This document shows positions 1 through 22,559 of a stretch of DNA of 64,000 bases, piece after piece. Every line of letters begins with the position of its first letter. The first letter of the stretch is position 1. The position numbers and the translations under genes were made by a program. The notes beneath the pieces were generated by a model. That model saw only the letters and a program-made list of their open reading frames with translations, ran no database searches and was not told the origin of the DNA. Source of the stretch: Streptomyces sp. NBC_01314 (GTDB lineage Bacteria; Actinomycetota; Actinomycetes; Streptomycetales; Streptomycetaceae); assembly GCF_041435215.1 (NCBI RefSeq), contig NZ_CP108394.1:868001-932000 (forward strand), read 5' to 3'.

Positions 1-1655
1 GGGTCGTACGAGACGGTGTCCCACAGCGGTGCCAGGGCCTCGTTCAGGGCCTGTGCCGGTATGTGCACGACGCCCGGCCGGTCCGCGCCGGATGCCGTCG
101 CGGCGCTCTCGGCGCCTTCCGACACCAGGCGGCGCAGCACGGCGTCGAGCCGGTCACGGCGCTCGTCGCGTGTGGTGAGTTCCCCCACGGCCAGGGCCGC
201 CAGCGAGCCGGGGCGCCCTCCGAGCGTCTCGCGCAGGGCGTCCCGGGCGTCCTCGCGGGCCAGCAGCGCGGCGAGGAACGCCAGCGGGAACACCGCCTCG
301 GTCATCTCGCGGATCCGGTCGACGACCGGCCCGCCGAAGCCGACCCGCTCGCTCACGGGGCTCGATCTGTCCTCGTGGAACAGCTCGCGGTCCGCGTAGT
401 GCCGCCCGCCGTCGCGCGAGACCTCACCGCCGGACCGCAGGCTCACGGCCCGCGCCGCCTCCAGATGCTCGGCGCGCTGCGGCCAGGAGGCCTCGGCGTA
501 TTTGTCGCGGTGCTCGGCCAGTTCCACCGCGTCGGCCGTCGGATGCCCGGCCGCGACCTTGGTCAGCGCGTGCAGTTCGGTCGCCGGGAGCCGCCACGGC
601 GACACGACGAGCGCCGGCCCGAGGGCCTTGACCAGCCGTGCCGCGTGCTCCTCCGTGGGCTCGGGGCCACCGGCCGCCGTCAGCAGCGCGTCGAGCCGGT
701 CACCGGCCCGCGCGCGGGCGGCCCGCCACAGGGCCAGCGCGGGCGCGGCCACCTTGAACCGGCGGCCGTCCGCGGTCCGTTCCAGCCCGAGGCCCGACTC
801 CAGTTCACGGAAGAGCGGGTTCGGCCACGCGTGCTGCCGGGTCAGCGGCACCTCGGCCGCGGCCTGCTCCCGCAGCTGTTCCACGAGCCAGGCGCTCGCC
901 TCCACGACGACCCGTTCCGGGCCGGCCGGGCCGACCCGCACCGCTTCCGCCTGCTCGGGCCGCATCCGGGCGAACAGCACCGGTCCGAAGAACGACACGG
1001 TCTCGCACTTGGTGGCGAACCGCCGGACGTAGCGGTGCAGGGTGTCGATCCGGCGGCGCAGTCCGCGCGGCAGCTCCGCGCCCTCCGCCGTGGCGGCCCA
1101 GCCGGCGTGCCCGGACGGCGGGGTCCGCAGGGCGGTGTCGAAGAACGTCGGGTTGGACACGAACACCGCGTGGCGGAAGTCGTCGAGGCCCGCCGCCTCC
1201 GCGGTGCGCAGCCTGGCGCGGTGCAGGGCTGCCGCGAACGCCTCCCGGGCGGCGGCCTCCCGCTCCCGGCGGGCCGCGACGACGGTGTTCCAGCGGGGTG
1301 CGAAGTCCGGCAGGCCGGTGGCGTCCAGGACGGCGACGCAGCGTTCGTCGAGCGGGGCGCCCTCCTCGACGGCCCTGCGGCAGCTCTGCAGCGCGCGCAG
1401 TGAACGCTGCCTCGGTTCGACCGCGCGTACCCTCTCCCGCACCCCCGGCCAGTGCTCGTCGAGGAAGGCGGCCCGCTCGGCGGCCACGGCGCGCTCCGCG
1501 TCGGCGGACCCGGTCGCGTCGTCGAGGAGTTCGGGGAAGGCCAGTCCGTCGAGCAGCCGGGTGGAGAATCCTGTCGCCCGCAGCAGCGACCAGGGCATGG
1601 TTTCCACGGCCAGTTCACCGTTTCCCGCCCGCACGTGCCATTTCAATGACGCCAT
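1..1655 (-). CDS. LanB-type (PEARL-like) protein, partial at left edge
   Basis: The frame is open from ATG at 1655 to the window edge (551 residues seen, no stop). It begins MASLKWHVRAG and has the LanB glutamylation-domain marks: SNPTFF near residue 175, ETVSFFGP at 218-225 and GRHYADRELF from 417. The same marks recur in the three LanB-type genes between 7.1 and 15.6 kb. The family uses aminoacyl-tRNA, either to glutamylate Ser/Thr (lanthipeptide dehydratases) or to add an amino acid to a peptide C-terminus (PEARLs). The PEARL reading fits the cluster better, but whether this copy has an elimination domain cannot be seen because the C-terminus is outside. It is divergent from the M20 gene, 104 bp away. 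Family call is firm; the reaction is inferred. Confidence 0.8.
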   Translation of the reverse strand, partial: MASLKWHVRAGNGELAVETMPWSLLRATGFSTRLLDGLAFPELLDDATGSADAERAVAAERAAFLDEHWPGVRERVRAVEPRQRSLRALQSCRRAVEEGAPLDERCVAVLDATGLPDFAPRWNTVVAARREREAAAREAFAAALHRARLRTAEAAGLDDFRHAVFVSNPTFFDTALRTPPSGHAGWAATAEGAELPRGLRRRIDTLHRYVRRFATKCETVSFFGPVLFARMRPEQAEAVRVGPAGPERVVVEASAWLVEQLREQAAAEVPLTRQHAWPNPLFRELESGLGLERTADGRRFKVAAPALALWRAARARAGDRLDALLTAAGGPEPTEEHAARLVKALGPALVVSPWRLPATELHALTKVAAGHPTADAVELAEHRDKYAEASWPQRAEHLEAARAVSLRSGGEVSRDGGRHYADRELFHEDRSSPVSERVGFGGPVVDRIREMTEAVFPLAFLAALLAREDARDALRETLGGRPGSLAALAVGELTTRDERRDRLDAVLRRLVSEGAESAATASGADRPGVVHIPAQALNEALAPLWDTVSYD

Positions 1656-1759
1656 GTCAACTCTCCCGACTGGTCTCGCTTTTCGAACTCGTATCCGGTA
1701 GGAAAGAGAGGGCTCGTACGGAAGACGGCGGGCTGTTTCCCGGTATTCCGGAGGAAAGA

Positions 1760-2965
1760 ATGCAGATGAGAATTCCGCCTCGGACGAAACGTCGCTGCGG
1801 CGCCGCCGTGAATCGCGCCGAGGAGAAACTGCTGGCCCTGTCGAGAAGCATTCACGCCGAACCGGAGACGGCGTTTCAGGAACACCGCAGCGCCGCCAAG
1901 GTCGCCGGTCTCCTCCGGGACGAGGGCTTCGAAGTGGAGTCGGGGGCCGGCGGGCTCGAGACGGCGTTCACCGCGCGCTTCGGCGGTGGCCCGCTCACCG
2001 TCGGGCTCTGCGCCGAGTACGACGCGCTGCCGGGACTCGGCCATGCCTGCGGGCACAACATCATCGCGGCGTCCTCGGCCGGTGCCGCGCTGGCGCTGCG
2101 GGACGTCGCCGACGAACTCGGCATCACCGTGCTCGTCATCGGCACCCCGGCCGAGGAGGAGGGCGGCGGGAAGATAGCCCTCCTGGAGGCCGGGGTCTTC
2201 GACGACGTGTCGATGTCGATGCTGGTGCACCCGGCCCCGGAGGACAACTGCGCCCCGCGCCCGCTCGCGCTCCTGGAACTGGAGGTCCGCTACACCGGGC
2301 GGCCGTCCCACTCCGCTCTCGCCCCGCATCTGGGCGTCAACGCGGCCGACGCGCTGACCGTGGCGGAGGTCGCCGTCGGTGTCGGCCGGCAGCACTTCGA
2401 GCCCCGGCAGCAGGTGCACGGCATCGTCACCCGGGGCGGCCAGGTCCCGAACGTGGTGCCGGCCGACACCCGGGCGCTGTACAACCTGCGCGCCGCCGAC
2501 ATGGAGTCGCTCGGCCGCCTGGAGTCCCGGATCAGGGCGTGCTTCGAGGCCGGCGCCGTCGCCACGGGCTGCACGCACGAGGTGCTGTCCACCCCCGCGT
2601 ACGCCGAGCTCGCGCACGACGCGTTCCTGTCCGAGGCGTACCGCGCGGCCGCCACCGAACTGGGCCGGCCGCTGGTGTCCCGGGAGGCGGAGCGCGACAT
2701 GCCCACCGGCAGCACCGACATGGGCAATGTGAGCCGGGCGTTGCCGGCGCTCCAGCCCAGCATCGGTATCGACAGTGGCGACGCGGTCAACCACCAGCCG
2801 GAGTTCGCGGCTGCCTGTGTCGCCCCCGGCGCCGACCGCGCGCTGGTGCAGGGCGCGGTCGCTCTTGCCTGGACCGCCGCGCAGGCGGCCCACGACGACG
2901 AGACCAGGGAGCGGCTGCTGACGCACCAGGCGCAGCGGCGGGCCCCCGGCGACGCGACGGCCTGA
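1760..2965 (+). CDS. M20-family amidohydrolase/peptidase
   Basis: A 401-aa metallo-amidohydrolase of the M20 family, close in style to p-aminobenzoyl-glutamate/aminoacylase types. Visible metal-ligand motifs are GHACGHN (residues about 94-100) and PAEEEGGGK (about 130-138); GRPSHSA marks the lid domain and STDMGNVS lies near the C-terminus. Start chosen at ATG 1760, with GGAGG at 1750-1754; ATG 1766 is an alternative. It has no signal peptide, so it should act in the cytosol. It is the only cluster gene on the plus strand and is divergent from a LanB-type gene. A plausible role is hydrolysing an amide bond to free or trim the product made on the scaffold peptide; this is inference from context. 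Confidence 0.88.
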   Translation: MQMRIPPRTKRRCGAAVNRAEEKLLALSRSIHAEPETAFQEHRSAAKVAGLLRDEGFEVESGAGGLETAFTARFGGGPLTVGLCAEYDALPGLGHACGHNIIAASSAGAALALRDVADELGITVLVIGTPAEEEGGGKIALLEAGVFDDVSMSMLVHPAPEDNCAPRPLALLELEVRYTGRPSHSALAPHLGVNAADALTVAEVAVGVGRQHFEPRQQVHGIVTRGGQVPNVVPADTRALYNLRAADMESLGRLESRIRACFEAGAVATGCTHEVLSTPAYAELAHDAFLSEAYRAAATELGRPLVSREAERDMPTGSTDMGNVSRALPALQPSIGIDSGDAVNHQPEFAAACVAPGADRALVQGAVALAWTAAQAAHDDETRERLLTHQAQRRAPGDATA

Positions 2966-2978
2966 CGTCGAGGCCGTA

Positions 2979-3018
2979 CGGTCCGCCGGTGGCGTCGCGC
3001 CCACCCGTCGGCGGACCG
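2979..3018. terminator. Hairpin between convergent M20 and VOC genes
   Basis: A perfect 10-bp inverted repeat (cggtccgccg / cggcggaccg, arms 2979-2988 and 3009-3018) with a 20-nt loop lies in the 65-bp gap between two convergent stop codons. No T-tract follows, as is usual in Streptomyces. Likely a bidirectional terminator. Confidence 0.6.
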
Positions 3019-3030
3019 GGCCGGGTCGGT

Positions 3031-3702
3031 TCACGGCAGCCGCACCACGGTCTCGCCCTCGGCGGTGCCGACGCGGACCGCGGTGATCTCCGGGCCCGCC
3101 GCGGTGTCGATGTCGACGGCGAGTCCGTCCAGGCCCGGCCAGCCAGGCGCCCATTCCCGTTCCTGCGCCGGGCCGGTCACCAGGCCGTCGAGCGTGCGCG
3201 GGCACACCCGGTGGGCGGCCGCCGCGAGGTCGCCCGGCACCCGGGCCGCGCGCGCCTCGGGGTTGCCGTAGCTGAGGAAGAACGGCAGCACACGGCTGCG
3301 CCAGGACAGCTCGAACGCGGCCTCCGCCCAGGGCACCCGCTGGCCGTCCGCGCGCACCGACTCCCCTTCGTACAGATCGGGGTCGGCCCCGGTGAGCGCC
3401 TCCACCGCGCGGGCGGTGCCCTTGATGTCGCCGGTGAGGACGGCCCAGTTGAGGAAGGCGGGCCCGTCCGCGGTCCGTTCCAGGAAGAGCCGCCCGAAGT
3501 CGGCGCCGGCCAGCTTCTCCTCGTCGTGTGTGACGAGCAGTTCCAGGTACTGCACGTCGGGGGTGTCGAAGGGCACCACCCAGCTCGCCGTTCCGTCGGG
3601 GTTGGGGCTGCCGTCGGTGATGCCGAACCCGTACCGCTCCCAGAGCAGTTCGCGCAGCGGCTCGATGGTCCGGGCGCCGAGGATCACATGGTCGAAGCGC
3701 AT
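3031..3702 (-). CDS. VOC (glyoxalase/bleomycin-resistance) fold protein
   Basis: A 223-aa protein starting MRFDHVILGAR, typical of the first strand of a vicinal-oxygen-chelate module; TASWVVPFDTPDVQYLELL and the Gly/Asp-rich turns also fit. Length suits a glyoxalase-like fold with an extended C-terminal half. Its ATG overlaps the stop of the flavoprotein gene by one base (TGATG), so it is the last gene of the minus-strand cluster operon. VOC proteins bind a metal and act on small oxygenated substrates or bind products. A role with a quinone-like intermediate, or in self-protection, is possible but unproven. Confidence 0.72.
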   Translation of the reverse strand: MRFDHVILGARTIEPLRELLWERYGFGITDGSPNPDGTASWVVPFDTPDVQYLELLVTHDEEKLAGADFGRLFLERTADGPAFLNWAVLTGDIKGTARAVEALTGADPDLYEGESVRADGQRVPWAEAAFELSWRSRVLPFFLSYGNPEARAARVPGDLAAAAHRVCPRTLDGLVTGPAQEREWAPGWPGLDGLAVDIDTAAGPEITAVRVGTAEGETVVRLP

Positions 3703-4805
3703 CAGGCCGCACCGCCCAGGGCGTGGTCCGGGCACATGCTGTACGGCAGCGCGTCCCAGTCGTCCTCGATCAGCCCCGCCGCCATGCCCTTGCCTGTACA
3801 GCGCGCGGAGAGCAGTCCGTGACCGGCGTGCCCGGCCGACATGAAGATCCGCTGCCGGCCGGGGACCGCGCCGACGAGCGGGCGGCCGGTGCCGGACACG
3901 GGCCGCAGGCCGGCCCGCAGCTCCGCGGGGACCGACTCGGCGAGCCCCGGCATGACGGTGGTCGCGAACCGCAGCAACTGCCCGATGCCCTGCGTCGTGA
4001 CGCGCTCCGCGAAGCCGCTGTCCTCCTCGGTCGCGCCGACGATGACGTCGTCCCCGACCCCCGGCGCGAGGTAGTAGGCGGAGGAGAGGATGCAGTTCAG
4101 TTTCTCGTCGGACCGCAGCACCACCATCTGGCCGCGCTGCGGGCGGACCCCGGTCGCCTCCGCGAGCCCCTTGCCCGAACTCCACGCTCCGGCGGTGATG
4201 ATCACCCGGTCCGCCGTGACGGTGCCCTCGTCCGTGAGGACGGACACCGCCTGCCCTTCCTCCCGGACCTCGCGGGCAGCACGGCCCTGGGCCCAGGTGA
4301 CCCCCTGCGCGAGGCAGCGGCGGCGCACCGCGTCCAGATAGCGCCGCCCGTCGACCATCAGTCCGCCCTCGTCGAGCAGATACCGCCGGCTGTCCGGCAG
4401 CTTCAGCCCCGGCCCGGCGGCGGCGAGTTCGTCACCGTCGACCCACCGGCCCGCCCCGGCGCCCTCGATGGCCTCGGCGTGGGTGTCGGCCTCCGTCGCG
4501 CGCAGGGCCCGCAGGATGGGCCGCGCCACGCTGAACGCGCCGAACTCCGGCTCCAGCCGGGCCACGTCGGCGTCCAGGTCCCCCTTGGCATGCCGCAGCC
4601 AGTCGTAGAACGCGGGGTCGGTGAGGTACCGGAGGGAGGGGACGGCCACTCCGGCGGCCTTGTTGGTGGCCTGGCCCGGCTCCTCCCCCGCATCCAGGAC
4701 GACGACCGAGGCACCCCGGCCGCTCAGCTCCTCGGCCAGGCAGGCACCGACGATCCCACCGCCTACCAGGGCGAAATCAGGGGTTGTTGACGGTGACGAC
4801 GGCAT
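3702..4805 (-). CDS. FAD-dependent amine/glycine oxidase-like protein (DAO family)
   Basis: A 367-aa flavoprotein. The N-terminal Rossmann motif VGGGIVGACLAEELSGRG (residues about 13-30) and the C-terminal RPVSGTGRPLVG and SAGHAGHGLL segments are those of DadA/ThiO-type oxidases, which oxidise amino acids or N-substituted glycines to imines. Start ATG 4805 has GGAAGG upstream and overlaps the TldE-like gene by 29 nt. In ammosamide-type PEARL pathways a glycine added from Gly-tRNA is later stripped to leave an amine; a glycine-oxidase-like enzyme here would fit such a step. That link is inference; the family assignment is firm. Confidence 0.88.
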   Translation of the reverse strand: MPSSPSTTPDFALVGGGIVGACLAEELSGRGASVVVLDAGEEPGQATNKAAGVAVPSLRYLTDPAFYDWLRHAKGDLDADVARLEPEFGAFSVARPILRALRATEADTHAEAIEGAGAGRWVDGDELAAAGPGLKLPDSRRYLLDEGGLMVDGRRYLDAVRRRCLAQGVTWAQGRAAREVREEGQAVSVLTDEGTVTADRVIITAGAWSSGKGLAEATGVRPQRGQMVVLRSDEKLNCILSSAYYLAPGVGDDVIVGATEEDSGFAERVTTQGIGQLLRFATTVMPGLAESVPAELRAGLRPVSGTGRPLVGAVPGRQRIFMSAGHAGHGLLSARCTGKGMAAGLIEDDWDALPYSMCPDHALGGAA

Positions 4806-5859
4806 GTCCGGTACCTTCCAGTTCGGCTGCGCCGGCGAGCACCAGCGAGCGGGTGGTCACATCGCTGTCGCTGTGGACAGCCGTGGGCGGGCCGGTCAGG
4901 CCACGGGCCCGGCGCAGCAGGTGCACGGGTTTGCCCCGCAGCACGACGGTGAACCAGGCCCCGGGCCGCTCCGTGACCCTCGCCAGGCACTGCAGCCGTA
5001 CGGTGCCGTCCGCGTGGTAGCGCTGAAGTCCCTCGACGCAGCGCACGAGTTCCACCGCGTGCGACGGCAGGGGCAGGTCGGGGCCGAGGAGTTCGAGCCG
5101 GGCCAGCGGCGGCGGGGCGCACGCGCCGCTGTCGTGGTCCCAGACCGCGCGGCCGACGGGGATGCCCTCGCGCAGCGGGGCCGGTGGGCGGATCCGGCCG
5201 TCGTCGACGAGTGTCCTGGGCTGCGCCGGGCCGCCCAGGTCGTCCTGGGCGTGGGCCGAGGGAGTCGTGGGCAGGTCGCGCAGGGTCAGGGACGGCAGGA
5301 CCCGGCGCCCGGCGAGTCTGTGCGCCGTGTCCCGGCCGCCCCGTGAGGTCAGGGAGAACGCCGTACCGGCGACGAGCACGGCGGCGGGCGAGGGGCGCAG
5401 CACGAGCGGCCGTTCCCGCCAGTCGGCCGGGGGGCCGTCGCCGGCCGTGCTTCCTGCCGGGGCGGCGAGTTCGTGCCAGGGCAGGTCCTCGGCCGTCGCG
5501 AGGGGCTCGCCGTTCCCGGCCGTGCCGAACAGGACCGGCCCGCCGGCGGTCTCCACGCGGGCCAGCAGTTCGGTCCGGCGTTCCAGCAGCTTCCCGTCGG
5601 CGTCGCGCCACTCCCGGACCGTGGCCACGGCGCTCTGCAGTCCGCCGTCACCAGTGCCGGCCCGGGCGGCTGTCTCGGCGAGGAGCAGCCCGGTGTGCTT
5701 GGCGGCCTCCTGGCCGAGCGGTTCCGTGCTCCGCAGGGAGCCGGTGACCCGTCCCGCGTCGTCCCGTTCCAGTCGTAGCGCGTCGACGGAGACGGTGACG
5801 CGGGGTCCGCCGGGGGCGGGGGTCAGGACCCCGAAGGCCCTTACGCGCGACTCATGCAC
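4777..5859 (-). CDS. TldE/PmbA-like protease partner (divergent)
   Basis: About 360 aa if started at GTG 5859, which overlaps the end of the TldD gene by 8 nt; the frame is open to 5898. No HExxxH motif is present, as expected for TldE, the non-metal subunit that pairs with TldD. The C-terminal half (GAVLVAGTAFSLTSRGG-like run, residues about 160-200, then LPLPSHAVELVRCVEG) recalls the TldE core, but similarity is weak and the protein is shorter than the usual 440-450 aa. The call rests largely on overlap with the tldD-like gene. In characterised systems TldD/TldE cleaves leader or unfolded peptides; here it probably degrades or trims the scaffold peptide. Confidence 0.6.
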   Translation of the reverse strand: MHESRVRAFGVLTPAPGGPRVTVSVDALRLERDDAGRVTGSLRSTEPLGQEAAKHTGLLLAETAARAGTGDGGLQSAVATVREWRDADGKLLERRTELLARVETAGGPVLFGTAGNGEPLATAEDLPWHELAAPAGSTAGDGPPADWRERPLVLRPSPAAVLVAGTAFSLTSRGGRDTAHRLAGRRVLPSLTLRDLPTTPSAHAQDDLGGPAQPRTLVDDGRIRPPAPLREGIPVGRAVWDHDSGACAPPPLARLELLGPDLPLPSHAVELVRCVEGLQRYHADGTVRLQCLARVTERPGAWFTVVLRGKPVHLLRRARGLTGPPTAVHSDSDVTTRSLVLAGAAELEGTGHAVVTVNNP

Positions 5860-7159
5860 GGGCCACCGCCCGGAGGCCGACCAGGCCGGACGGGACACGC
5901 AGCCCGGCGTTGGCGAACGAGACCAGTACGGGGTACTGCCCGAGCTTGCCGCAGCCGCCCGTGGCGCGCAGATAGCCGTCGACGCGGTGCTCGAACGGCT
6001 CGATCCCGGCGAGGACCCGGGCGCCGTTGCCCGTCACCTCCAGCGGGCCGAGCCGGGCGAGGCCGCCGTCGGCGCGGTGCAGCAGCGAGAAGGGCGCGTC
6101 GAAGACGAACTCCCCCGAGGCGATGTTCATCATGTGCAGCCGCAGTCCGTAGGGGGCGATCCAGTCACCGGGCGGTGCCTGGAGCGGCGTTCCGGGTTCC
6201 ACCAGCGCCACCGTGTGGGTCATGCGGGGAATCGCCGGATGCCGGTAGTCCTGTCGGCGGCCGTGGCCCGTGCCGGGGGTGTCCAGGAGTCCCGCCACCG
6301 CCAGGTCCGTCATGGGGCGGCCCACGGTGCCGCGGTCGATCAGCCGGGCCGTCGAGCAGTCGGTGCCCTCGTCGTCGAACGGGCTGCGGTAGCCGCGTAC
6401 GGCCTCCCGGCCGCCGTCCACGACGGACAGCCAGTCGGGGGCCACCCGCCGTCCGGCGCGGGCGCCCAGGTAGCTGGTGCCGGAGGCCACCACGTCGCCC
6501 TCCATGGGGTGGCCGACGATCTCGTGGAAGAACGCGCCGGCGAGGCCGGGCAGCAGCACCAGGTCGGCCCTGTCCGGCAGGGTGTCGGCGAGGGGCAGCG
6601 CGAGACGGCGACGGATCTGCTCCGCCGTGCGGGCCGCCACATCCCGCAGGGCCTTCGTGTCGGCCGGGGAGCCGCACAGCAGGGACCGCGTGTGCCGGGT
6701 GCCGTCCGTTCCGGTCAGCCGCACCTCCAGGGTCGTCACCATCCGTTCCGCGGCGCGGACCCGGTCCGGTCCGCCGGCGGCGACATGCTGCTGGACCACG
6801 CCCAGCGAGAGGTGCGCGCCGGTCTCGGCGGCCACGGCGGCGAGACCGGTCCTGCTCTCCTCCGACAGGGCGTACAGGGGGCGTTCCTGTACCTCGCGCA
6901 GCGTGTCGGCGGCAGCGCCCACGGCCCCGGTGCGGCCGGCGCGGAGCAGGGCGTCGTCGTCGGCGAACCGGTGCTCCGTCCAGCCGTGCCCGTCGGCGTG
7001 CTCGACGCTCATCCCGCGTACGGCGGACCGTCGTTCGTCGGCCGTGCCGTCCGGCGCGACGTCGGCCCGCAGCCTCAGGGAGCGCTCGGCGAAGACCGTG
7101 GTGTACGCCCTGCCGGTGGCCGCCGTCCGCCCACCGCGCACCTGTGTCGTTCCGGTCAT
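5852..7159 (-). CDS. TldD-like metallopeptidase
   Basis: A 435-aa protein with the TldD zinc motif HEIVGHPMEGD (HExxxH at about 212-217), SYLGARAGRRVAP after it and GGCGKLGQYP near the C-terminus, which matches the conserved TldD GG.C....G segment. ATG 7159 overlaps the upstream LanB-type stop in an ATGA. TldD works with TldE as a heterodimer that threads and cleaves peptides; the pair is best known from microcin B17 leader removal. Here it sits directly between a LanB-type gene and a TldE-like gene, so removal of amino acids from the modified scaffold peptide is the natural guess. Confidence 0.9.
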   Translation of the reverse strand: MTGTTQVRGGRTAATGRAYTTVFAERSLRLRADVAPDGTADERRSAVRGMSVEHADGHGWTEHRFADDDALLRAGRTGAVGAAADTLREVQERPLYALSEESRTGLAAVAAETGAHLSLGVVQQHVAAGGPDRVRAAERMVTTLEVRLTGTDGTRHTRSLLCGSPADTKALRDVAARTAEQIRRRLALPLADTLPDRADLVLLPGLAGAFFHEIVGHPMEGDVVASGTSYLGARAGRRVAPDWLSVVDGGREAVRGYRSPFDDEGTDCSTARLIDRGTVGRPMTDLAVAGLLDTPGTGHGRRQDYRHPAIPRMTHTVALVEPGTPLQAPPGDWIAPYGLRLHMMNIASGEFVFDAPFSLLHRADGGLARLGPLEVTGNGARVLAGIEPFEHRVDGYLRATGGCGKLGQYPVLVSFANAGLRVPSGLVGLRAVARA

Positions 7160-10880: not shown

Positions 10881-13171
10881 CAACTCTCACCCCCGCCCCG
10901 CAGGTACACACAGCGCAGTTCGGACGCGAACCGCAGTTCTCCGTCCCGCAGCCAGGTGTCCTCGGGCGCCGGCAGTGGCTCGGAGACCGCGAGCTGCTCC
11001 GCGGTGCCTGCCAGCCGCGCGAGCCCTTTCAGCAGTTCGGGCGCGGCCGTGTCCACATACACAGGCTTCCGCTCGGCCGGGGACTTCACGAAGAACCGCG
11101 TCGGCAGTCCGTGTGCACGCACCAGCCGGGCCGACTCCAGCAGCCGGTCGGCGTCCTGGGGGCGGCCCGCCGCGTCGAGTACGGCGGCGCTCGGGACGGT
11201 CCAGCGGCGCCGCGAGAACACCACGTTGCCCCAGCGCAGCCGTGGGACGTGGGGCAGATCGGGGAGGGCCGGGCGGCGGATGCGCGGCAGGGCGAGCGCG
11301 GTGTGGACTGCGGTGTCCAGTTCACCGTTGTGGAACAGCATGCTCCGGCCGGGGTGGGTGTCGCTGCGCAGCTCGACCCGTTCGCCGTCGCTGTCCAGCC
11401 ACAGCTCGTCCAGGCCGACGCGTTCGCGTCCCGGGGCAGCGGTGCCGCCCAGTTCGAGGACGACGCCGGGGAACTCCAGCGGCGGCAGACCTGTCGTGCG
11501 GCGCGAGATCACGTTCACGGCGAGCCGGTCGCCGAGGGCACGGCGCACGGCCGCGTCCCGTCCGGCGAGAAGCTCGGCCGAGTCCGGGTGGAACTGGAGC
11601 GCCCAGGGGGTGAGCAGCGCCGCGTCGTGGATGTCGCCGAGCACCAGGGGGGTGTCGCCGGGCCGGTAGTCGGCGAGGTCGGCCGCGGCGACGAGGACGT
11701 CGATCGAGCACAGCACCGGCTCCGGCGGCGCCGGCGGCTTCGGCAGCAGCCCCGCCACGTCCAGTTCCGCGCGGTCCGCCCCGGCGTCGGCGATCACCTT
11801 GCCGAGTTCGGTTCCCAGGCGGCCGCCGGCCACGATCTCCAGCGAGGCGCAGTCCCGCAGCGCCCGTGTGAGGGGGATCCGGCCGGGACCGAGGTGGGCC
11901 GCGACGGCGCTGTTCGTACGGATCCTGGTCGACTCGGCCTCGTGGGCGAGCAGATCGAGCACCGGGGCGACGGCCTCGCACATGTCGCGCGCGAGGGGCC
12001 CGCGCACGGTGAGGTCGGCCGTCCCCACCGCGGCCTCGTGGACGATCACACGGTCGTTGTAGAAGCGGCCCCGCCGAGTCGGCCCCGAGGCGCCCGGGAG
12101 CAGGGACTCCAGTTCCGCCTGGACGGTCAGCTTGCGGTCGGGGGGCGCCGCCGGGTAGCCGTCGAGCAGGTCGAGCATCTTCACCAGCAGGGCGCGTACA
12201 CCGGCGGCACGGCTCGCCGTCGCGTTGTCCGAGGCGTCGATCCGTTCCAGGGTCCAGCGCAGCGGATCGACGACCGTCGCGGGCGGGCACAGCGTGTGGG
12301 TGAGCAGTCCCTTGGCGACGGCCGTGCGGAACTGCCCGACCGCGTCGTCCTCGGCCGCGCCCAGCCCGGCGGCGATCCCCGCCACGGTGCGCTCGCCGTC
12401 GGCCTCCCGGACCAGCGACGCGAGAAGCCCGTCTCCCCGGGGCGCGCGGGTCACGGTCTTGCGCACGGGCACCAGGTGCGTGGCGAGGGAGTCGTCCTCG
12501 GTGAGCAGGGCCTGCACGGCGTCGTTGACGCGGGCGGCGGTGTGGGCCTGGCGGACCGGGATCTCCTGGTGGCCCCGCCAGGTGAGGGTGGTCGGGGCGT
12601 CCGACTCCGCGTCCACCCGTCCGTAGTTGATGGGGCCGAAGAAGCTCATCGTCTCGCTCTTCGACGCCAGCCGCTGTGCGTAGGAGGCGAGTTGCCTGCG
12701 GATACGGCCGCCCGTCGTCCCCCTCACCAGGTCTCGGTGCACGGCGGGGGAAGAGCACACTATGGCGTCATTGACCCGCGGGTCGGTACGGATGCCCGTG
12801 AGGGCCTTCTCGACGAGCGCGGCGTCGGAGTCGACCGTCGACGCGATCCGCTCCCGGGCCAGGGTCACCCGCCCGGCCACGTCGTTCCACTCCGCGAGCC
12901 AGTCCTCGGTGAACGTCTCCGACGGCGGCAGGGGCCGCAGATTACGCAGCTTGCTCTGCTGACCACGGGCGAGACGGCCGTGGGGCCGCAGCCGGGCGGC
13001 CACTTCGGCGGCCTCCGCCTCCAGCGCGGACAACTCGTCGAGGAGCTCGCGGGTGCGCTCGTACGTCAGGGACTCGACCATCTGCCAGGGGAACCCGGCG
13101 CTGCGCAGGACGACGGCCGGCAGCAGTTCCCAGCGCGGGCCCGCCGGGGCGGCTGCGGGGGATTCGTTCAC
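10880..13171 (-). CDS. LanB-type (PEARL-like) protein
   Basis: 763 aa from GTG 13171, overlapping the upstream stop as GTGA; the frame is open further upstream but only within the preceding gene. LanB marks: LLPAVVLRSAGFPWQMVESL at the N-terminus, CSSPAVHRDLVRG, SETMSFFGPINYGRVD (SFFGP at 176-180), GRFYNDRVIVHEA in mid-protein and a C-terminal AERKPVYVDTAAP / FASELRCVY block. It lacks an elimination domain. The four LanB-type proteins clearly share a domain plan but are far apart in sequence, which suggests different tRNA or peptide substrates. The enzyme should be cytosolic. Confidence 0.85.
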   Translation of the reverse strand: MNESPAAAPAGPRWELLPAVVLRSAGFPWQMVESLTYERTRELLDELSALEAEAAEVAARLRPHGRLARGQQSKLRNLRPLPPSETFTEDWLAEWNDVAGRVTLARERIASTVDSDAALVEKALTGIRTDPRVNDAIVCSSPAVHRDLVRGTTGGRIRRQLASYAQRLASKSETMSFFGPINYGRVDAESDAPTTLTWRGHQEIPVRQAHTAARVNDAVQALLTEDDSLATHLVPVRKTVTRAPRGDGLLASLVREADGERTVAGIAAGLGAAEDDAVGQFRTAVAKGLLTHTLCPPATVVDPLRWTLERIDASDNATASRAAGVRALLVKMLDLLDGYPAAPPDRKLTVQAELESLLPGASGPTRRGRFYNDRVIVHEAAVGTADLTVRGPLARDMCEAVAPVLDLLAHEAESTRIRTNSAVAAHLGPGRIPLTRALRDCASLEIVAGGRLGTELGKVIADAGADRAELDVAGLLPKPPAPPEPVLCSIDVLVAAADLADYRPGDTPLVLGDIHDAALLTPWALQFHPDSAELLAGRDAAVRRALGDRLAVNVISRRTTGLPPLEFPGVVLELGGTAAPGRERVGLDELWLDSDGERVELRSDTHPGRSMLFHNGELDTAVHTALALPRIRRPALPDLPHVPRLRWGNVVFSRRRWTVPSAAVLDAAGRPQDADRLLESARLVRAHGLPTRFFVKSPAERKPVYVDTAAPELLKGLARLAGTAEQLAVSEPLPAPEDTWLRDGELRFASELRCVYLRGGGES

Positions 13172-15603
13172 GACGAAGCTCTTTTCATGGCGATCCGGAA
13201 CTCCGAGGTCACGGGCGATCCGCCGTGGCTCAGCCACAGGGCGTCCGGCGCGGGACGCATCTCCGCGAGCGAGATCTGCCGGTCCTCCCCTGCCAGGACC
13301 ATCGCCACGAGCGCGTCGACCGCCAGCGGGTTGTCCAGGTCAACTCCGACGGGTTTCGGCTCGTGCGCGGCGGAGGCGAAGCAGAACCGGGGCAGCCCGT
13401 GCCGCGCCCGCAGCGCCTGCACCGCGAGGAAGGCACCCGCGGAGTCGCGTACGGCGTCGATGGCGAGGTCGACGCGGCCGAACCACCAGCGGGCCCGCTG
13501 CACGATCAGATCGCCGACAGTGATCCGTGGCGCGAAGTCCCCGAGTCTGACCTGGGGAAGCGCCACTCCGGGGGCGGCGAACGCCCGCAGGTGGACGTGG
13601 TCGTCCTCACCGGCGTACAGGACCAACTCGCCGTCGGGCGTGCGCAGTCGAGGCCGCCCGTCGTCGAGGACGACCGTCAGGTCGGTGAGCGGCACGGTCC
13701 GGTCCGCGTCCTCGGTGGCCACCGCCGTGATCTCGACGAAGCGGCCCGGGAACCAGTCGGCCACCAGCCCCTTGTGGCGGCGCCGTCTGATGACCGTGGC
13801 GATGCGTTCGGGGCCGCCCCATGGTTCGAGTCCGGTGGCGAAGTCGTCCAGCATCCGGTCCTGTTCGTCGCTGAACAGTCCCTGGGAGCCCCAGGCGAAG
13901 ACGTACGGGTGCAGCTCGCCCAGGACGAGCAGGTCGGGGCCGTCGGGCCGGCTCTCCAGCATCAGGTCCGGGCTCACGAACCGGTCCCGGCCGGGATCGG
14001 GGGCCAGCGCCGCCAGATCCCGCGCGGTCAGCCGTGCCTCCCGGCCGTGCAGACCGGAGCGCACCAACTCCGTGTAGGCGAGGGTGAACCCGTCCGCCTC
14101 TGAGGTGAGTTCAGCGAGCGCACCACTTTCGACCGCCGCGTGTGTGCGGCGGATCAGCTCGTCGTACGGCATGGGGCCGGGGCCCGCCGCGCGCACGATC
14201 TGCCCGCACAGCCGGGCCGCGGCGCGCTGCTGGATCTCGCCGTAGCGGGCGGCGGCGTCGAGTACGGGAGTGAGCTGTTCCTCCCAACGGCGTGCCACGG
14301 GGCCGCCGACCACGACGGGGCTCTGGTCGCCCTTGGCATCGAGGGACACCACGAGCCGGTCGGCGTACATGCGGCCGCCCGCGCGCCGGGCGTCGACCGA
14401 GGTGAGCGCGGTGAAGCATTCCTCGACGTCGGCGAGCGCGGCGGCCCGTGCCCGGTGGCCGTCGGCCGCGGCGTACCAGTCGGCCAGGTCCCGCAGTTCA
14501 CGCAGCCCGGCCGGCCAGCCGGTCGTGGAGGCGTACCGGTCCGCCCAGGAGATCAGCCAGTCGAGCGGCCGTGCCGCGGTCGACGGGGGTTCCGGCCAGA
14601 GGCGGACGGCGCCGACCTGCCGCAGCCGCTCCAACACGTGCCGTGCGTCGGCGATTTCGGCTCCGGCGAGGTCGGCGAGGTCCGTGACCGACCGTCGGCC
14701 GTCGACAGCGCGGGCCACGGTCCACTGGGCGCCGACCAGTCTGATCCGGCGGCCGTCTGCGGGCCGGATCGCTCCTTCACCGGGTGCGCTGTCTTCCTCC
14801 CGGTGGCAGGAGGGCAGCCAGAACACCGGGGACGCGTCGCGTACGGCCGGATCGGTGCCGATGAGCCGGGCCAGCTCGCAGACGGCCCAGAAGGCCGTCT
14901 GCGCCTGGAAGAAGTGGACTCCCGACTCCGTCTCGGGGCCCAGCTCGATACCGTCGGCGGCCCGGTCGACCCTGCCGTGGACGAGCGGGCCGAAGAAGCT
15001 CGTCGTCTCGTTCTTGGCGCCGAGCCTCTGCCCGTACAGGTATGCACGGCGGTAGAAGGAGCGGTCCTTGGCCCGGTTGCGTCCCGCCCCGCCCCGCTCG
15101 GCCCAGCCGTCGTTCCAGCGGAGCACTTCTGTGTGGAAGGACGGGGAGAGCTGCAACAGCGCGTCGCGGACCCGCTCGTCGTCCAGCAGGGCGCGCACAC
15201 GTTCCGGCCGGCGCAGCGCCTCTTCGGCGAGGACCGCCGTCAGCCGGTCCGCCGTCTCCCGCTCGGCGGCGAGCGCCGTGGCGTAGCCGCCCACGGCCTC
15301 GGCCAGTTCGGGGTTGAGGGTCCCGGGTTCGACGGGCAGCCTGCGGCCGGCCCGGCTGCGCATCGTGGACAGCTCGCGCAGCTTCGCCCGGTCCGCCGTC
15401 CGGTCCGCTCGGGCGACGGTCTTGGCGATCTCCTCCCGCAGGAGGGTGCGGCTCTGTTCGAACCGTCCCGCCGCGGCGCGGTACTCCGCGGCCGTGGCGA
15501 GGGTGGGACCGTCGGCCAGGTCGGTGAGCAACTCCACGCCGAACCCGGCGCGGCGCAGCAGCAGACGCGGGTACAGACGCCATCCAGGTGTGTTGTCCGT
15601 CAT
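13168..15603 (-). CDS. LanB-type (PEARL-like) protein
   Basis: 811 aa from ATG 15603, with an AGGA element upstream and a 3-bp gap after the TPR gene stop. LanB marks: YPRLLLRRAGFGVELLTDL, LSPSFHTEVLRW, NETTSFFGPLVHGRVD (S at 202), GRMYADRLVVSLDAKGD and the C-terminal EPKPVGVDLDNP / VTSEFRIAM block. It is the longest complete copy and the first LanB-type gene after the precursor and TPR genes, so it may act first; in the ammosamide precedent the first functional ligase adds Trp. That order is a guess from gene position. Confidence 0.85.
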   Translation of the reverse strand: MTDNTPGWRLYPRLLLRRAGFGVELLTDLADGPTLATAAEYRAAAGRFEQSRTLLREEIAKTVARADRTADRAKLRELSTMRSRAGRRLPVEPGTLNPELAEAVGGYATALAAERETADRLTAVLAEEALRRPERVRALLDDERVRDALLQLSPSFHTEVLRWNDGWAERGGAGRNRAKDRSFYRRAYLYGQRLGAKNETTSFFGPLVHGRVDRAADGIELGPETESGVHFFQAQTAFWAVCELARLIGTDPAVRDASPVFWLPSCHREEDSAPGEGAIRPADGRRIRLVGAQWTVARAVDGRRSVTDLADLAGAEIADARHVLERLRQVGAVRLWPEPPSTAARPLDWLISWADRYASTTGWPAGLRELRDLADWYAAADGHRARAAALADVEECFTALTSVDARRAGGRMYADRLVVSLDAKGDQSPVVVGGPVARRWEEQLTPVLDAAARYGEIQQRAAARLCGQIVRAAGPGPMPYDELIRRTHAAVESGALAELTSEADGFTLAYTELVRSGLHGREARLTARDLAALAPDPGRDRFVSPDLMLESRPDGPDLLVLGELHPYVFAWGSQGLFSDEQDRMLDDFATGLEPWGGPERIATVIRRRRHKGLVADWFPGRFVEITAVATEDADRTVPLTDLTVVLDDGRPRLRTPDGELVLYAGEDDHVHLRAFAAPGVALPQVRLGDFAPRITVGDLIVQRARWWFGRVDLAIDAVRDSAGAFLAVQALRARHGLPRFCFASAAHEPKPVGVDLDNPLAVDALVAMVLAGEDRQISLAEMRPAPDALWLSHGGSPVTSEFRIAMKRASS

Positions 15604-15606
15604 GGC

Positions 15607-17412
15607 TCAGTCCTGAAAGTTGATCAGGTCGAAGGGACGGTTGAGCTTGGTGCGGGGCATGGGCAGCAGCCCGGCCGGCTCGGTCCCCTCTCTGACGGCC
15701 TTGGCGAGCGTGTCCGCGTCACCGGGACGGGTGAGGCTCAGCGCGGCGTGTTCCTCCGCGGACCGGGCAGCGGCTGCCGAACCCGTCGCCAGGAACCGTC
15801 CGGCCTGCGCCTGTGCGATCCGGTAGGGGTCACCGAGCTGGACGGCTGTCGCCTCGGCCCGCGCGTACTGCTCGTCGGCGGCCTCGCGGTCACCGGCCGA
15901 GGCGTGCAGCGTGCCCAGTTCCAGCCGTACCTCGGTCTCGTGGAAGAGGTCGTCCAGCCCGTGGGCGTTGAACAGTGTGGTGTCGAGGTCGGCGAGAGCC
16001 GCGTCGCGTTCCCCGACCAGCAGTCGCAGCCCGGCGCTGCGGTAGGCGTGGTGCTTGGCGAACCCGGCGTTCGAGGCCCCGGTGGCCTGCTTGAACTTCT
16101 CCCACGTCTGCAGGGCCGAGCTGTGCTTGCCGGCCTTCTCCTGGAGCACGCTGATGTTCGAGTAGAGGTTGATCCGCAGATGTGCGGAGCTGGCGTCGGT
16201 CAGGCCGGCCATGCAGGCCAGCGCCTGCTTCTCGTGCTCGAACGCGGCGCCCAGACGTCGCTCGGCGAACAGAGTGAGCCCGCGCAGGTTGTGCAGCCAC
16301 CCCCGCTCGCGGCGCACGCTCTCGGCCTCGTCGGGACGTTCCTCGACCGCCGCGAAGCCCTGTTCGACCTCCGCGACCGCCTCGGCCAGCCGCTGCTTGC
16401 GCTTGGAGAGGGTCAGCGCCGAGTAGAGATGGGACTGGGCTCGGATCTCCGGGGAGAGGCCGGGCGCGTCCTCCCGCATGGCGCGGAAGAACGCGAGGGC
16501 GCTGTCCTGGTCCCCGCGGAATCCGGCCTGGATGCCGAGCACCTTCAGCAGGAATCCTCTGACATCGGACGGACCGCGCAGGATCGCGGTCTCGAACTCG
16601 ATGGCGTGGACGAGTTCGCCCTCCCGCTCGGCCTTCCCGAGCAGTTCGGGGATCTTCGCCTCGGGAATGCCGGACAGCAGCCGGACCGCCTCGTCGGCGA
16701 CGACCGCCATGCCCTCCCAGTTCGCGGAGAAGAACGCCTCGCGGCTGTACGCCAGGGCGGCAGCCACCCGGTCCACGGCGGAACTCTGCTCGTCCCGAGC
16801 CCTCAGATAGAGCCGGCCCTCCTCCGAGACCGGCACGAACGGAGTGGCGGGCCGGTCCGGCAGGCCGGGCGGCAAGTCCCCGTCGGCGAGGGGCAATCCC
16901 ATCCGGCGCAGGCAGCGCAGTCGTTCCCGGTCGTAGTCGGCATGACCGACAACCGGGGTGCGCACCGCTTCCGGAGCGTCGAGCAGGAGAGCGGCACCGG
17001 GTGCGACCCGCGCGTGCTCCACGGCCCGCATGAAGCCGCGCAGCGAGGAGAGGTCCGTCCCGCCGACACCGCTGACGAGCAGCGGCCGGCCGAGTTCGGC
17101 GGTCGCAGCGCACAGGGCGGCGGCGGCCACCGACAGCACGCGGTACACCTGCTCGCTCTCGCGGTGCAGCCGGCGCTCGGAGGGAGCGAGGGCGATCTCC
17201 TCCAGCGGTGTCGTGCCGGGCGAGGCCTGTGCGGGGAACAGCTCGGCCCACTCGGACGCGTGACGGACGGGCAGGTCGCCGAAGGACGCGCCCTCGGAAC
17301 GCAGCGCCTCCAGGCTCTCCCGAAGCCCGGAGTAGGAGGCTGCGGGCCCTGTGTTCACATCGACTCGGACGACGTTCCCGTGAGCGGTGCTCGAACCCGC
17401 CGCGTTCACCAT
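15607..17412 (-). CDS. TPR-rich protein coupled to the precursor gene
   Basis: 601 aa. The N-terminal quarter (YRVLSVAAAALCAATAELG, PLLVSGVGGTDLSSLRGFMRA) looks like a small alpha/beta domain, and residues about 210-560 form helical TPR-type repeats. The start codon lies inside the end of the precursor gene (ATG 17412 or GTG 17409), so translation of the two is coupled. The extreme C-terminus, KLNRPFDLINFQD, is set off from the repeats. TPR proteins bind peptides or partner proteins; here it could present the scaffold peptide to the LanB-type enzymes or act as a regulator. No catalytic motif was seen. Confidence 0.8.
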   Translation of the reverse strand: MVNAAGSSTAHGNVVRVDVNTGPAASYSGLRESLEALRSEGASFGDLPVRHASEWAELFPAQASPGTTPLEEIALAPSERRLHRESEQVYRVLSVAAAALCAATAELGRPLLVSGVGGTDLSSLRGFMRAVEHARVAPGAALLLDAPEAVRTPVVGHADYDRERLRCLRRMGLPLADGDLPPGLPDRPATPFVPVSEEGRLYLRARDEQSSAVDRVAAALAYSREAFFSANWEGMAVVADEAVRLLSGIPEAKIPELLGKAEREGELVHAIEFETAILRGPSDVRGFLLKVLGIQAGFRGDQDSALAFFRAMREDAPGLSPEIRAQSHLYSALTLSKRKQRLAEAVAEVEQGFAAVEERPDEAESVRRERGWLHNLRGLTLFAERRLGAAFEHEKQALACMAGLTDASSAHLRINLYSNISVLQEKAGKHSSALQTWEKFKQATGASNAGFAKHHAYRSAGLRLLVGERDAALADLDTTLFNAHGLDDLFHETEVRLELGTLHASAGDREAADEQYARAEATAVQLGDPYRIAQAQAGRFLATGSAAAARSAEEHAALSLTRPGDADTLAKAVREGTEPAGLLPMPRTKLNRPFDLINFQD

Positions 17413-17648
17413 CGGGCGGACACGTTCGCGGCGAGGGCCAGGGGAGCGATCTTGTTCTCGACCTCGTCGAGGTCGAAGTCCACGTCGTCGAGGTCGTCGA
17501 GGTTGTCGAGACCTTCGAGCTCGGTGTCGTCCTCGGTGTCCGCCGTGACGACCGTGACCTCGCCCTCGGGGGCTGCGGGGGACTCGGCGGTCGTCGCCGT
17601 GTCGGTCTGCGTGGGGTCGGCCTGTGTGAGCTCGGTGATGCCTTCCAT
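17406..17648 (-). CDS. Acidic precursor/scaffold peptide ending in Trp
   Basis: 80 aa from ATG 17648, with GGAG upstream. The first 30 residues are Thr/Ala/Pro-rich, residues 36-64 are very acidic (LDNLDDLDDVDFDLDEVEN), and the tail is KIAPLALAANVSARW. It contains no Cys and, in the tail, only one Ser, so it cannot form a normal lanthipeptide. An acidic leader with a short, nearly featureless tail suits a scaffold peptide that PEARLs extend at the C-terminus. The genetically encoded C-terminal Trp is notable because ammosamide-type pathways work on a C-terminal Trp. It is the first gene of the operon and overlaps the TPR start. Confidence 0.85.
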   Translation of the reverse strand: MEGITELTQADPTQTDTATTAESPAAPEGEVTVVTADTEDDTELEGLDNLDDLDDVDFDLDEVENKIAPLALAANVSARW

Positions 17649-17764
17649 GGGGTTCTCCGTTTCGGGTCTCTCAGCGGGAGACCGGATGAATGACGTCAGG
17701 GCAGACGGGCAGGACTCGCCAAGCCGCCGCGTGCCGGGGCACGGCGACGCGGACGGCTCGCGGT

Positions 17765-17804
17765 GAGGGAGGGGGGAGTGAAGGGAGAGGGAGGGGGGTG
17801 TGAA
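17765..17804 (-). promoter_or_regulatory. Direct repeat with 22-bp period, candidate SARP operator
   Basis: Two 18-bp copies (17765-17782 and 17787-17804) match at 17 of 18 positions. On the minus strand each begins TTCAC(A/T)C followed by a C-rich tract. The period is exactly 22 bp, two helical turns. SARP regulators bind direct heptamer repeats at 11- or 22-bp spacing, and a SARP gene lies just upstream at 18.5-19.5 kb. The site is in the 182-bp gap before the precursor gene. I could not place a clear -10 box. Confidence 0.5.
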
Positions 17805-17830
17805 CGACGGCGGTGGCGCGCCTTCGCGCG

Positions 17831-18460
17831 TCAGTACGCGGCGGCGCGCACTCGTAGGAAGTCGACGACCTGACCGCCCATCGTGGCCAGTTGGGCCGTG
17901 ACGCGCGGGTCGGTACTGTTCCCGTCGGGCGCGAGCGAAGTCGTCTCGGTGTTGACCGTGACGCCGAGCGGAGTGGGCCAGCCCCGCAGCGCGTGCACGA
18001 CGGCGCGGAGGCCTGAGAGGGCCGAGGCGGCCTGCGGGCCGCGGGCGGTGACCACACAGCCGACCGCGCGGCCGTGCAGGTAGGGGCGGGAGTCCTCGCG
18101 GAGGTCCTCGATGTAGTCGAGGGCGTTCTTGACGAGGCCCGACACGCCGCCGTGGTAGGCAGGAGTGCCGATCACCAGTCCGTCCGCCCGCTTGATCGCG
18201 TCGATCAGTGCCCGTGCCTCCGGTGTCCGCCGCGTTTCCGCCGGGGAGAAGAGCGGCAGTTGCAGATCGGCGGCGCCGAAGAGGAGCGTCCTGGCCCCGG
18301 CCGCCCGGGCGGCCGAGAGTGCCGCCCCGACCGCGAGCTCCGTTGAGGACGAGGGACGGATTGTGCCGCCGATGCCGACGACGAGGGGGGCTGCGCTGTC
18401 GCCGGGGCCTCTGACTCGTTTCCCGGTGAGGGATCCGATGTCTCGTTCCGTCTCCAGCAT
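17831..18460 (-). CDS. NADPH-dependent FMN reductase-like flavoprotein
   Basis: 209 aa from ATG 18460 (ATG 18490 is an alternative). Flavodoxin-fold motifs are plain: VVGIGGTIRPSSSTELAV near the N-terminus (FMN phosphate loop) and VIGTPAYHGGVSGLVKNALDYIEDL about residues 90-115. The family reduces or uses FMN with NAD(P)H. Placed between a SARP gene and the precursor gene, it is probably a cluster tailoring enzyme; in the ammosamide pathway a flavoprotein hydroxylates the indole of the added Trp, and this gene is a candidate for such a step. The N-terminal 30 residues before the fold are extra. Confidence 0.85.
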   Translation of the reverse strand: MLETERDIGSLTGKRVRGPGDSAAPLVVGIGGTIRPSSSTELAVGAALSAARAAGARTLLFGAADLQLPLFSPAETRRTPEARALIDAIKRADGLVIGTPAYHGGVSGLVKNALDYIEDLREDSRPYLHGRAVGCVVTARGPQAASALSGLRAVVHALRGWPTPLGVTVNTETTSLAPDGNSTDPRVTAQLATMGGQVVDFLRVRAAAY

Positions 18461-18514
18461 GGAGCCACCAACCTTCCTGGCCGAGCGCATGCTTGAAACC
18501 TTAATCAGGAGGCG

Positions 18515-19510
18515 TTACGAGGCCGTTATGCGGACGGTGGCCGACTGCAGCCCAGCCCCCTTGGCTGCGGCCACAGCAGCTGGGCGTACGGTCGTGGTGG
18601 GCAGGCGGACCTCATGAGGCGGGGAACACGCCCCCGTGCGCATCATTCGCTCGAAAGCGCGGCGGGTGTCTTCGGTGATACCCACGTCGAGCTCCTCGGA
18701 CAGCCGACGGCAGCACTGGTCGTACCAGGCCCTGGCTTGGCCCAACTGGCCCAGCTCGCCGTGGAGTTGGATCAGTGTTCGGTAGACGTTCTCCTGGTAG
18801 GGATCCACCTGCAGGGTCCGGCGGCACAGGGTGATCGCCTCGGACACGTCCTCCCGGCACAGCGCGTCCTCCAGCAGGTGGCCGAGTGCCGCCAGGACCA
18901 GGGACCGCGCCCACTCCTGCTGCTCTCGGACCCACTCGGCGTTCTGCCCGTGCATGAAGTCCCCGCTGTACAGCTGCTGGGCGCGGTGGAACCGGTCGAG
19001 CGCGGTGGACCTGTCGTTGCAGGCGGCGGCCCGCCGCCCCTCGCCGCAGAGCCTCTCGAACTCCTCGATGTCAAGCCACAGGTCATGGGCTCGCAGGGTG
19101 TATCCGCCGTTCTGGGAGACGATTTCGGCCGCCGGGCATTCGGCGTCCCCGGTGTCCGCGCCTCTGAGAATTTGGTCGACCGCGTGCTTGGCCACCCGTA
19201 TGGAACTCGACTGCGGTGATCTGACCTTCTCGGGCCACAGGGCTTCGTGGAGTTCGTCACGGTCGACCGTACGGCCACGGTTGACGAGGAGATACAGGAA
19301 GAGGTCTCGTGCTTTGCCGGCTCGCCACCGAATGATCCGGCGCCCCTCCACACTCAAGGAGAAAGAGCCGAGGCAGTGCGCAACGATGCGGGCGGAAACA
19401 GCGGATGAAGGCAAGACAGCCCCTATTCTCGCTGGAACGAGACAGGCGTGCCCGCACCCATCCGGGAGGATGCTGCGGAAATGAGTGAGTCCGCTGGTCA
19501 GGCGGCCCAT
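18515..19510 (-). CDS. SARP-family (BTAD) pathway activator
   Basis: 331 aa from ATG 19510; a TTG at 19414 with AGGGG upstream would give about 299 aa and may be the true start. An OmpR-like winged helix (HCLGSFSLSVEGRRIIRWRAGKARDLFLYLL, then DELHEALWPEK) is followed by a bacterial transcriptional activation (BTAD) helical domain (LYSGDFMHGQNAEWVREQQEW, DPYQENVYRTLIQLHGELGQ). There is no NTPase domain, so it is a small SARP. It is the obvious cluster-situated activator; the 22-bp-period repeat before the precursor gene is its likely target. Confidence 0.9.
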   Translation of the reverse strand: MGRLTSGLTHFRSILPDGCGHACLVPARIGAVLPSSAVSARIVAHCLGSFSLSVEGRRIIRWRAGKARDLFLYLLVNRGRTVDRDELHEALWPEKVRSPQSSSIRVAKHAVDQILRGADTGDAECPAAEIVSQNGGYTLRAHDLWLDIEEFERLCGEGRRAAACNDRSTALDRFHRAQQLYSGDFMHGQNAEWVREQQEWARSLVLAALGHLLEDALCREDVSEAITLCRRTLQVDPYQENVYRTLIQLHGELGQLGQARAWYDQCCRRLSEELDVGITEDTRRAFERMMRTGACSPPHEVRLPTTTVRPAAVAAAKGAGLQSATVRITAS

Positions 19511-22520: not shown

Positions 22521-22559
22521 GGGGGGAGTCCGCTCCTGAGGGTGAGGTAAACTAGAAAA

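Follow-up and report, generated by a model that had tools for sequence, protein, structure and literature searches.

A predicted lymphostin-type pyrroloquinoline cluster with four PEARL genes in Streptomyces sp. NBC_01314

What is made by a locus in which four divergent LanB-like genes surround one small acidic precursor gene? This question is raised by a stretch of 64,000 nucleotides, hereafter the window, from the genome of Streptomyces sp. NBC_01314 (11.35 Mb, two contigs; window C1:868001-932000, C1 being contig NZ_CP108394.1), in which gene calling by codon-position GC was carried out with flanks included (C1:848001-932000). An earlier note on this DNA had proposed a multi-step pathway of peptide aminoacyl-tRNA ligases (PEARLs) acting on a single scaffold peptide, with an unfamiliar set of accessory genes and possibly a new product. 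The first of these proposals is well supported by four orthologous clades, by a conserved trio of ATP-site residues and by a match of the precursor to the ammosamide/lymphostin leader model. The second finds no support: the 491-aa accessory protein belongs to the Amm10 type and the TPR protein to the AmmC1 type, the locus is collinear with loci of Salinispora and Streptomyces, and the left flank carries LymA- and LymB-type finishing enzymes. The locus represents another instance of an established system, not a new one, and the sequence evidence makes it very probable that it is a lymphostin-type pyrroloquinoline (pearlin) cluster with lymphostin or a close neolymphostin as predicted product.

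Four PEARL genes in a collinear locus

The cluster genes lie on the minus strand and run leftwards from about 19.5 kb, with an M20 peptidase gene as the sole plus-strand exception, and the cluster continues for some 9 kb to the left of the window. From the precursor gene to the VOC gene they follow head to tail, neighbours either overlapping, by some 70 bases at most, or lying a few bases apart; this agrees with the overlapping gene run with TldD/TldE, oxidase and VOC genes described earlier. A genome scan with an Amm10 alignment yielded 16 loci, including those of five Salinispora species, Streptomyces sp. MJM8645 and S. uncialis DCA2648; 15 of these were long enough for counts, and a 5.2-kb fragment (L018) was excluded. 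Gene order (quinone reductase, precursor, TPR protein, LB1, LB2, Amm10, LB3, TldD, TldE, oxidase, VOC, divergent M20, LB4) recurs in all five Salinispora loci and in MJM8645, the collinear genes including M20 being 59-84% identical outside the precursor.

The four PEARL genes, all on the minus strand, occupy the positions of ammB1 to ammB4: LB1 (13168..15603; 811 aa, 70-71% identical to Salinispora), LB2 (10880..13237; 785 aa), LB3 (7156..9408; 750 aa) and LB4 (820 aa), of which 1..1655 lies in the window and the remainder, encoding the C-terminal part, to the left of it (whole gene C1:867193-869655). The leftward extension that completed LB4, which is 65-66% identical to its counterparts in three Salinispora species, also revealed the finishing genes described below. 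All six matches of the genome to Lant_dehydr_N (PF04738) fall at this locus, LB2, LB3 and LB4 scoring 54.9, 58.1 and 44 bits. LB1 gives no such hit in hmmscan and matches PF04738 only weakly in a six-frame genome search (25.8 bits, 32.5 with neighbours), and its membership consequently rests on motifs and tree. The four proteins share 23-27% pairwise identity and all carry the SFFGP and Y.DR motifs, so that the picture of four divergent LanB-like genes around one Cys-free acidic precursor of 80 aa is confirmed.

The resemblance to LanB enzymes could also indicate a class I lanthipeptide or thiopeptide cluster, in which such enzymes glutamylate and dehydrate Ser/Thr. The homology to Lant_dehydr_N speaks for this, whereas the elimination domain PF14028 has no match in the whole genome, although the same search finds matches in 38 of 61 genomes (the present one counted in the set). 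Likewise, no LanC is encoded near the cluster, the only LanC-like match of the genome being weak and about 5 Mb away, and the precursor lacks Cys. The absence of both elimination domain and LanC agrees with the earlier note.

The distinction between PEARLs and true LanBs was further addressed with an alignment and a tree of 36 LanB-like proteins, chosen from 67 segments of related loci, together with LB1-LB4 and five full-length LanBs. Duplicates and near-duplicates were dropped, one Salinispora and one Actinomadura representative being kept; the 67 segments did not include the LB3 copy of Rhodococcus, and one of six LanB stretches (L062) was left out as the wrong side of the gene had been retrieved. 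The PEARL ATP-site residues Asp542, Glu801 and Arg803 (TglB numbering), as described in PMC11117183, are all present in 40 of 40 PEARL rows, while none of the five true LanBs has the full trio and none has Arg803. LB1-LB4 fall into four orthologous clades (support 0.76, 1, 1 and 1), apart from the five LanBs, in a tree that includes no AmmB sequences. The four proteins thus combine a glutamylation-like domain and the ATP-site trio with the lack of an elimination domain. Given these residues in all four, a Cys-free precursor with a leader model of a different class, no PF14028 and no LanC nearby, the lanthipeptide or thiopeptide reading was rejected and is hardly credible.

In the aligned part of the LB3 gene of Rhodococcus sp. 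06-235-1A (L025, 11410-13635), codon 199 is an in-frame stop, the only one there, which is either a sequencing error or a sign of decay.

Scaffold, accessory and finishing enzymes

The precursor gene (17406..17648, minus strand) encodes an AmmA-type scaffold peptide of 80 aa with 0 Cys, 23 Asp/Glu and 2 Lys/Arg. It matches the NCBIfam model NF033737 (Amm_Lyn_leader), the leader of the ammosamide/lymphostin family of ribosomally synthesized and post-translationally modified peptides, with 55.9 bits at a cut-off of 30. Its core, LDDVDFDLDEVENKIAPLALA, ends in KIAPLALA, is identical to AmmA* at 18 of 21 positions and to BhaA with the added Ala at 16 of 21 (published sequences as given in PMC9850906), and is followed by an encoded tail, ANVSARW. 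A core identical or almost identical to it, also ending in KIAPLALA, was found by a scan of open reading frames in the precursors of 14 of the 15 long loci, the scan of L019 finding none. Four precursors (L017, L020, L021 and L023) stop exactly at IAPLALA. According to PMC9850906, BhaC1 shows little or no activity on substrates with a residue after Trp and does not accept Asp or Lys in the position preceding Trp, and a review describes the encoded Trp of AmmA as dispensable (PMC9505594). Because of these limits, the dispensable Trp and the four precursors that end at IAPLALA, the tail ANVSARW is probably cut away before the scaffold is used, by analogy with these systems. Trp occurs in 10 of the 11 encoded tails that follow the shared IAPLALA end (the present one, L010-L016, L022, L024 and L025), for example in SARW or QWRR; such Trp-bearing tails are perhaps the first-round substrate of TldD/E.

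The AmmC1-type TPR flavoprotein (15607..17412, minus strand; 601 aa) is a predicted Trp-indole trihydroxylase with counterparts of 53-77% identity in all 15 long loci. In the published description AmmC1 is a flavin-dependent indole trihydroxylase, in a model of which Lys350, Asn432 and Lys602 contact the substrate Trp. Lys337, Asn419 and Lys589 of the present protein have the same spacing (82 and 170) and are invariant in 14 of 14 rows (one from the present cluster and 13 from the 15 long loci, L012 and L013 being omitted); the assignment to the AmmC1 type is made on these residues.

The 491-aa Amm10-type protein (9405..10880, minus strand), with a C-terminal RRE-like domain, has 45 homologues, the closest of which include relatives in Streptomyces, Kitasatospora, Micromonospora and Salinispora; with these homologues and the shared synteny, the idea of a new accessory set was abandoned. 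Within its own genus, 5 of 392 genomes, the present one among them, gave a match at E <= 1e-20; of the other four, one (G298) has a close full-length counterpart (65%) and three have distant ones (34-42%). Two Cys residues (178 and 256) are invariant in 28 of 28 aligned family members, and the predicted fold is closest to TsrM, a radical S-adenosylmethionine (SAM) enzyme acting on Trp. According to published work, Amm10 has no radical-SAM cysteine motif.

Downstream lie a TldD-like protease subunit of the Amm12 type (5852..7159, minus strand, start likely the ATG at 7159) with an HEIVGH motif (PF19289, 86 bits; 65-67% to Salinispora) and a TldE-like subunit of the Amm13 type (4777..5898, minus strand), which has no Pfam hit and was assigned by synteny and tblastn, a 59-61% counterpart standing in the same place in the five Salinispora loci. 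They are followed by an FAD-dependent, glycine-oxidase-like enzyme of the Amm14 type (3702..4805, minus strand; PF01266, 167.9 bits; 72-74% to Salinispora), which scores 137.5 bits against the ThiO model, below its cut-off of 250.8, and by a glyoxalase-like VOC protein of the Amm15 type (3031..3702, minus strand; PF13468, 93.2 bits), the start of which overlaps the oxidase stop. The locus holds Amm10, the TldD/E pair and the glycine-oxidase-like enzyme together, and the TldD/TldE, oxidase and PF13468 genes follow the order Amm12, 13, 14, 15 as described in PMC12424672 and PMC11117183. A VOC gene comes after the oxidase, within about 40 bases, in all 15 long loci (L010-L017, L019-L025; at about 17 kb in each), and PF13468 was passed by all six of those tested, two Salinispora loci and S. 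uncialis DCA2648 included. Absent from the earlier note, as were the genes beyond the left edge, is the M20 dipeptidase gene of the Amm19 type (1760..2965, plus strand; PF01546, 43.3 bits; PF07687, 34.2 bits), divergent from LB4, which is 80-84% identical to its counterparts in the five Salinispora loci, in the same place and orientation, and is seen in 7 of the 15 long loci. On the other side of the precursor stands an NADPH-dependent FMN/quinone reductase of the Amm17/BhaH type (17831..18490, minus strand; PF03358, 87.9 bits), with a tblastn match in 13 of 15 loci.

To the left of LB4, outside the window, are genes for a LymB-like SAM methyltransferase (C1:866254-867165) and, left of it, a LymA-like enzyme of 2384 aa (C1:859045-866199). 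The latter consists of an AMP-ligase (A), an acyl carrier protein (ACP), a ketosynthase (KS), an acyltransferase (AT), a second ACP, a terminal reductase and a GNAT domain. The AT carries an HAFH motif, which we take to be of the malonyl type. Both finishing enzymes have counterparts in the three Salinispora species compared (68-72% for the methyltransferase, 67-68% for the LymA-like enzyme), in MJM8645 (84% and 74%) and in Actinokineospora (59% and 54%), the LymA-like enzyme matching over its full length in each case. Salinispora tropica, S. arenicola and S. pacifica are named in PMC9505594 as species known to carry the lymphostin cluster, which uses a hybrid of non-ribosomal peptide synthetase and polyketide synthase (NRPS-PKS). 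In lymphostin biosynthesis LymB is described as converting an intermediate aldehyde into a methyl vinyl ether by O-methylation (PMC10127204). By gene content an NRPS-PKS hybrid and a separate O-methyltransferase are likewise predicted here, and the domain order of the 2384-aa enzyme fits these brief published descriptions.

Proposed route and competing readings

What the sequences show directly is which genes are present, how they are ordered, to which orthologues they correspond and that key residues known from the literature are retained; by analogy with the ammosamide and bha enzymes each reaction, the tRNA used by each PEARL and the product may be proposed. Gene order predicts Leu for LB1, Trp for LB2, Gly for LB3 and Arg for LB4, as for AmmB1 to AmmB4. 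The scaffold would be used from its IAPLALA end, to which LB2 would add Trp from Trp-tRNA, the indole then being trihydroxylated by the TPR flavoprotein. LB3 would condense Gly, of which the Amm14-type oxidase would leave the nitrogen, LB1 would supply the second nitrogen from Leu, and LB4 would cap the chain with Arg. Subsequently, TldD/TldE would cut off a Trp*-Arg dipeptide, and its cleavage by the M20 enzyme would yield the diaminoquinone amino acid. On the LymA-like enzyme the carboxylate of this amino acid may then be activated, extended by a single malonate unit and released as an aldehyde, after which the LymB-like enzyme may O-methylate the enol and the GNAT domain may acylate an amine. 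The earlier suggestion that four copies mean several additions stands as regards a multi-step pathway. In the ammosamide route two PEARLs are described as giving nitrogen only and one as adding an Arg that is later removed (PMC11117183, PMC12424672), so that a product may keep fewer residues than there are PEARLs.

The known systems place the locus among these pathways. With the Salinispora cluster to which lymphostin is ascribed it shares scaffold, AmmC1, four PEARLs, Amm10, TldD/E, oxidase, VOC and M20 genes in the order and orientation of five loci, as well as LymB- and LymA-like genes in the three species compared; it differs in sequence to the extent given above and in its tail (ANVSARW against, for example, SNEAIQWRR). 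By the title of the reference, lymphostin was first reported from Streptomyces sp. KY11783. The bha cluster of Bacillus (Alkalihalobacillus) halodurans shares the PEARL logic and the related scaffold core, but the Ala before Trp in BhaA is described as PEARL-added (PMC9850906), with Asn added later (PMC11117183), whereas here the Ala is encoded. Reduced clusters with LB2, LB3, a precursor ending in IAPLALA, TldD/E, oxidase and VOC genes are present in Actinomadura macra, A. chibensis and A. syzygii (L017, L021, L023), where no LB1, LB4, M20 or LymA-like match was found within 21 kb, and a search of the A. macra genome for LB4 gave a single match of 29%. LB2 and LB3 being the only PEARLs seen in these loci hints that they perform the basal Trp and Gly steps, which favours the mapping by gene order.

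An ammosamide-type cluster leading to a chlorinated, amidated and N-methylated pyrroloquinoline, as in Streptomyces sp. CNR-698 or, for the ammosamide ester, S. uncialis DCA2648, would share the route from scaffold to diaminoquinone, the Amm10 and Amm12-15 type genes, the AmmA-like scaffold and the four PEARLs. However, neither the halogenase Amm3 nor the amidotransferase Amm20 has a counterpart in the cluster: two weak PF04820 matches lie at least 0.6 Mb off, so that no tryptophan halogenase is near, and the closest PF00733 (Asn synthase) match lies about 0.2 Mb off. LymA- and LymB-type finishing genes are present instead, and identity to the S. uncialis DCA2648 counterparts is mostly 41-59%, as opposed to the 59-84% seen with Salinispora and MJM8645. 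Ammosamide proper was ruled out on the missing halogenase and Asn synthase, and the ammosamide-type reading as a whole is highly improbable. Within the lymphostin-type reading, the LymA-like enzyme might take another extender, or the GNAT domain another acyl group, to give an undescribed lymphostin. At 66-67% (GNAT) and 68-69% (AT) identity to the three Salinispora counterparts the specificity could differ, and several congeners have been named (neolymphostin A, neolymphostin B and neolymphostinol B), but the AT keeps HAFH and both identities lie near the enzyme mean of 67-68%; a new congener of this kind is unlikely, if conceivable. Somewhat less likely still is a combination in which the VOC protein, encoded in every related locus compared and translationally coupled to the amine-releasing oxidase, performs a conserved step of the common pathway (e.g. 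on a reactive quinone-amino acid adduct) and the cluster yields an undescribed congener.

Several observations weigh against the assignment to a lymphostin-type cluster or against parts of it. In the ATP-site columns of the alignment, one of the five LanBs (L067) also shows the Asp and the Glu, though not the Arg. LB1-LB4 were mapped to AmmB1-B4 by gene order, without AmmB sequences, and the candidate for AmmB4 Glu581, Glu591 of LB4, is Glu in 8 of 9 LB4 rows with an uncertain placement. The methyltransferase stands at the locus in five of nine genomes searched (three Salinispora, MJM8645 and Actinokineospora), the finishing genes were compared in three of the five Salinispora species (L012 and L013 lay outside the search), and the putative names LymA and LymB are based on synteny, on the order of the domains and on a single sentence in each of two papers. 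No transporter is among the assigned cluster genes, the nearest being MFS genes at 21051-22640 and 24166-25383. Finally, PMC12715798, the sole work found that deals with Amm15 and ammosamide (it exists in two versions), reports that lymphostin and ammosamide-ester clusters lack amm15 and amm16, yet the present locus and those of Salinispora carry a VOC gene; either its figure uses other criteria or the statement on amm15 needs correction.

Flanking genes and implications

Beside the quinone reductase lies a gene for a SARP-type (BTAD) regulator (18515..19510, minus strand; PF03704, 64 bits), likely the pathway activator. Its counterpart in MJM8645 (55%) also adjoins the reductase and is the only match among the 16 loci, none being present in the roughly 2.6 kb on that side of the Salinispora loci. 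Further right, both MFS transporter genes lie on the minus strand, the start of the first being overlapped by a TetR gene (22583-23236, plus strand); judged by their position, these transporters could export the product. A polyprenyl synthase domain protein (29609-31285, minus strand) and a flavin amine-oxidase-family protein (33701-35488, plus strand) possibly represent a terpene/carotenoid cluster. On the other side, C1:851036-858734, to the left of the LymA-like gene, holds genes of proline-catabolism, sarcosine-oxidase-like, hydantoinase-like and GntR-like types, named by inspection of their translations and not by family search. These genes were weighed as possible members of the cluster and excluded; they gave no tblastn match (E <= 1e-3) in five stretches around the LymA-like gene in other genomes.

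With this locus, a further high-GC genome joins those that hold a complete cluster of the lymphostin type, lymphostin being an immune-suppressing molecule. LB1-LB4 have diverged enough from their orthologues to help compare tRNA choice among PEARLs. Furthermore, S. uncialis DCA2648, found here to bear the VOC gene, is the ammosamide-ester strain named in PMC12715798, which turns the correction suggested for amm15 into a testable one.

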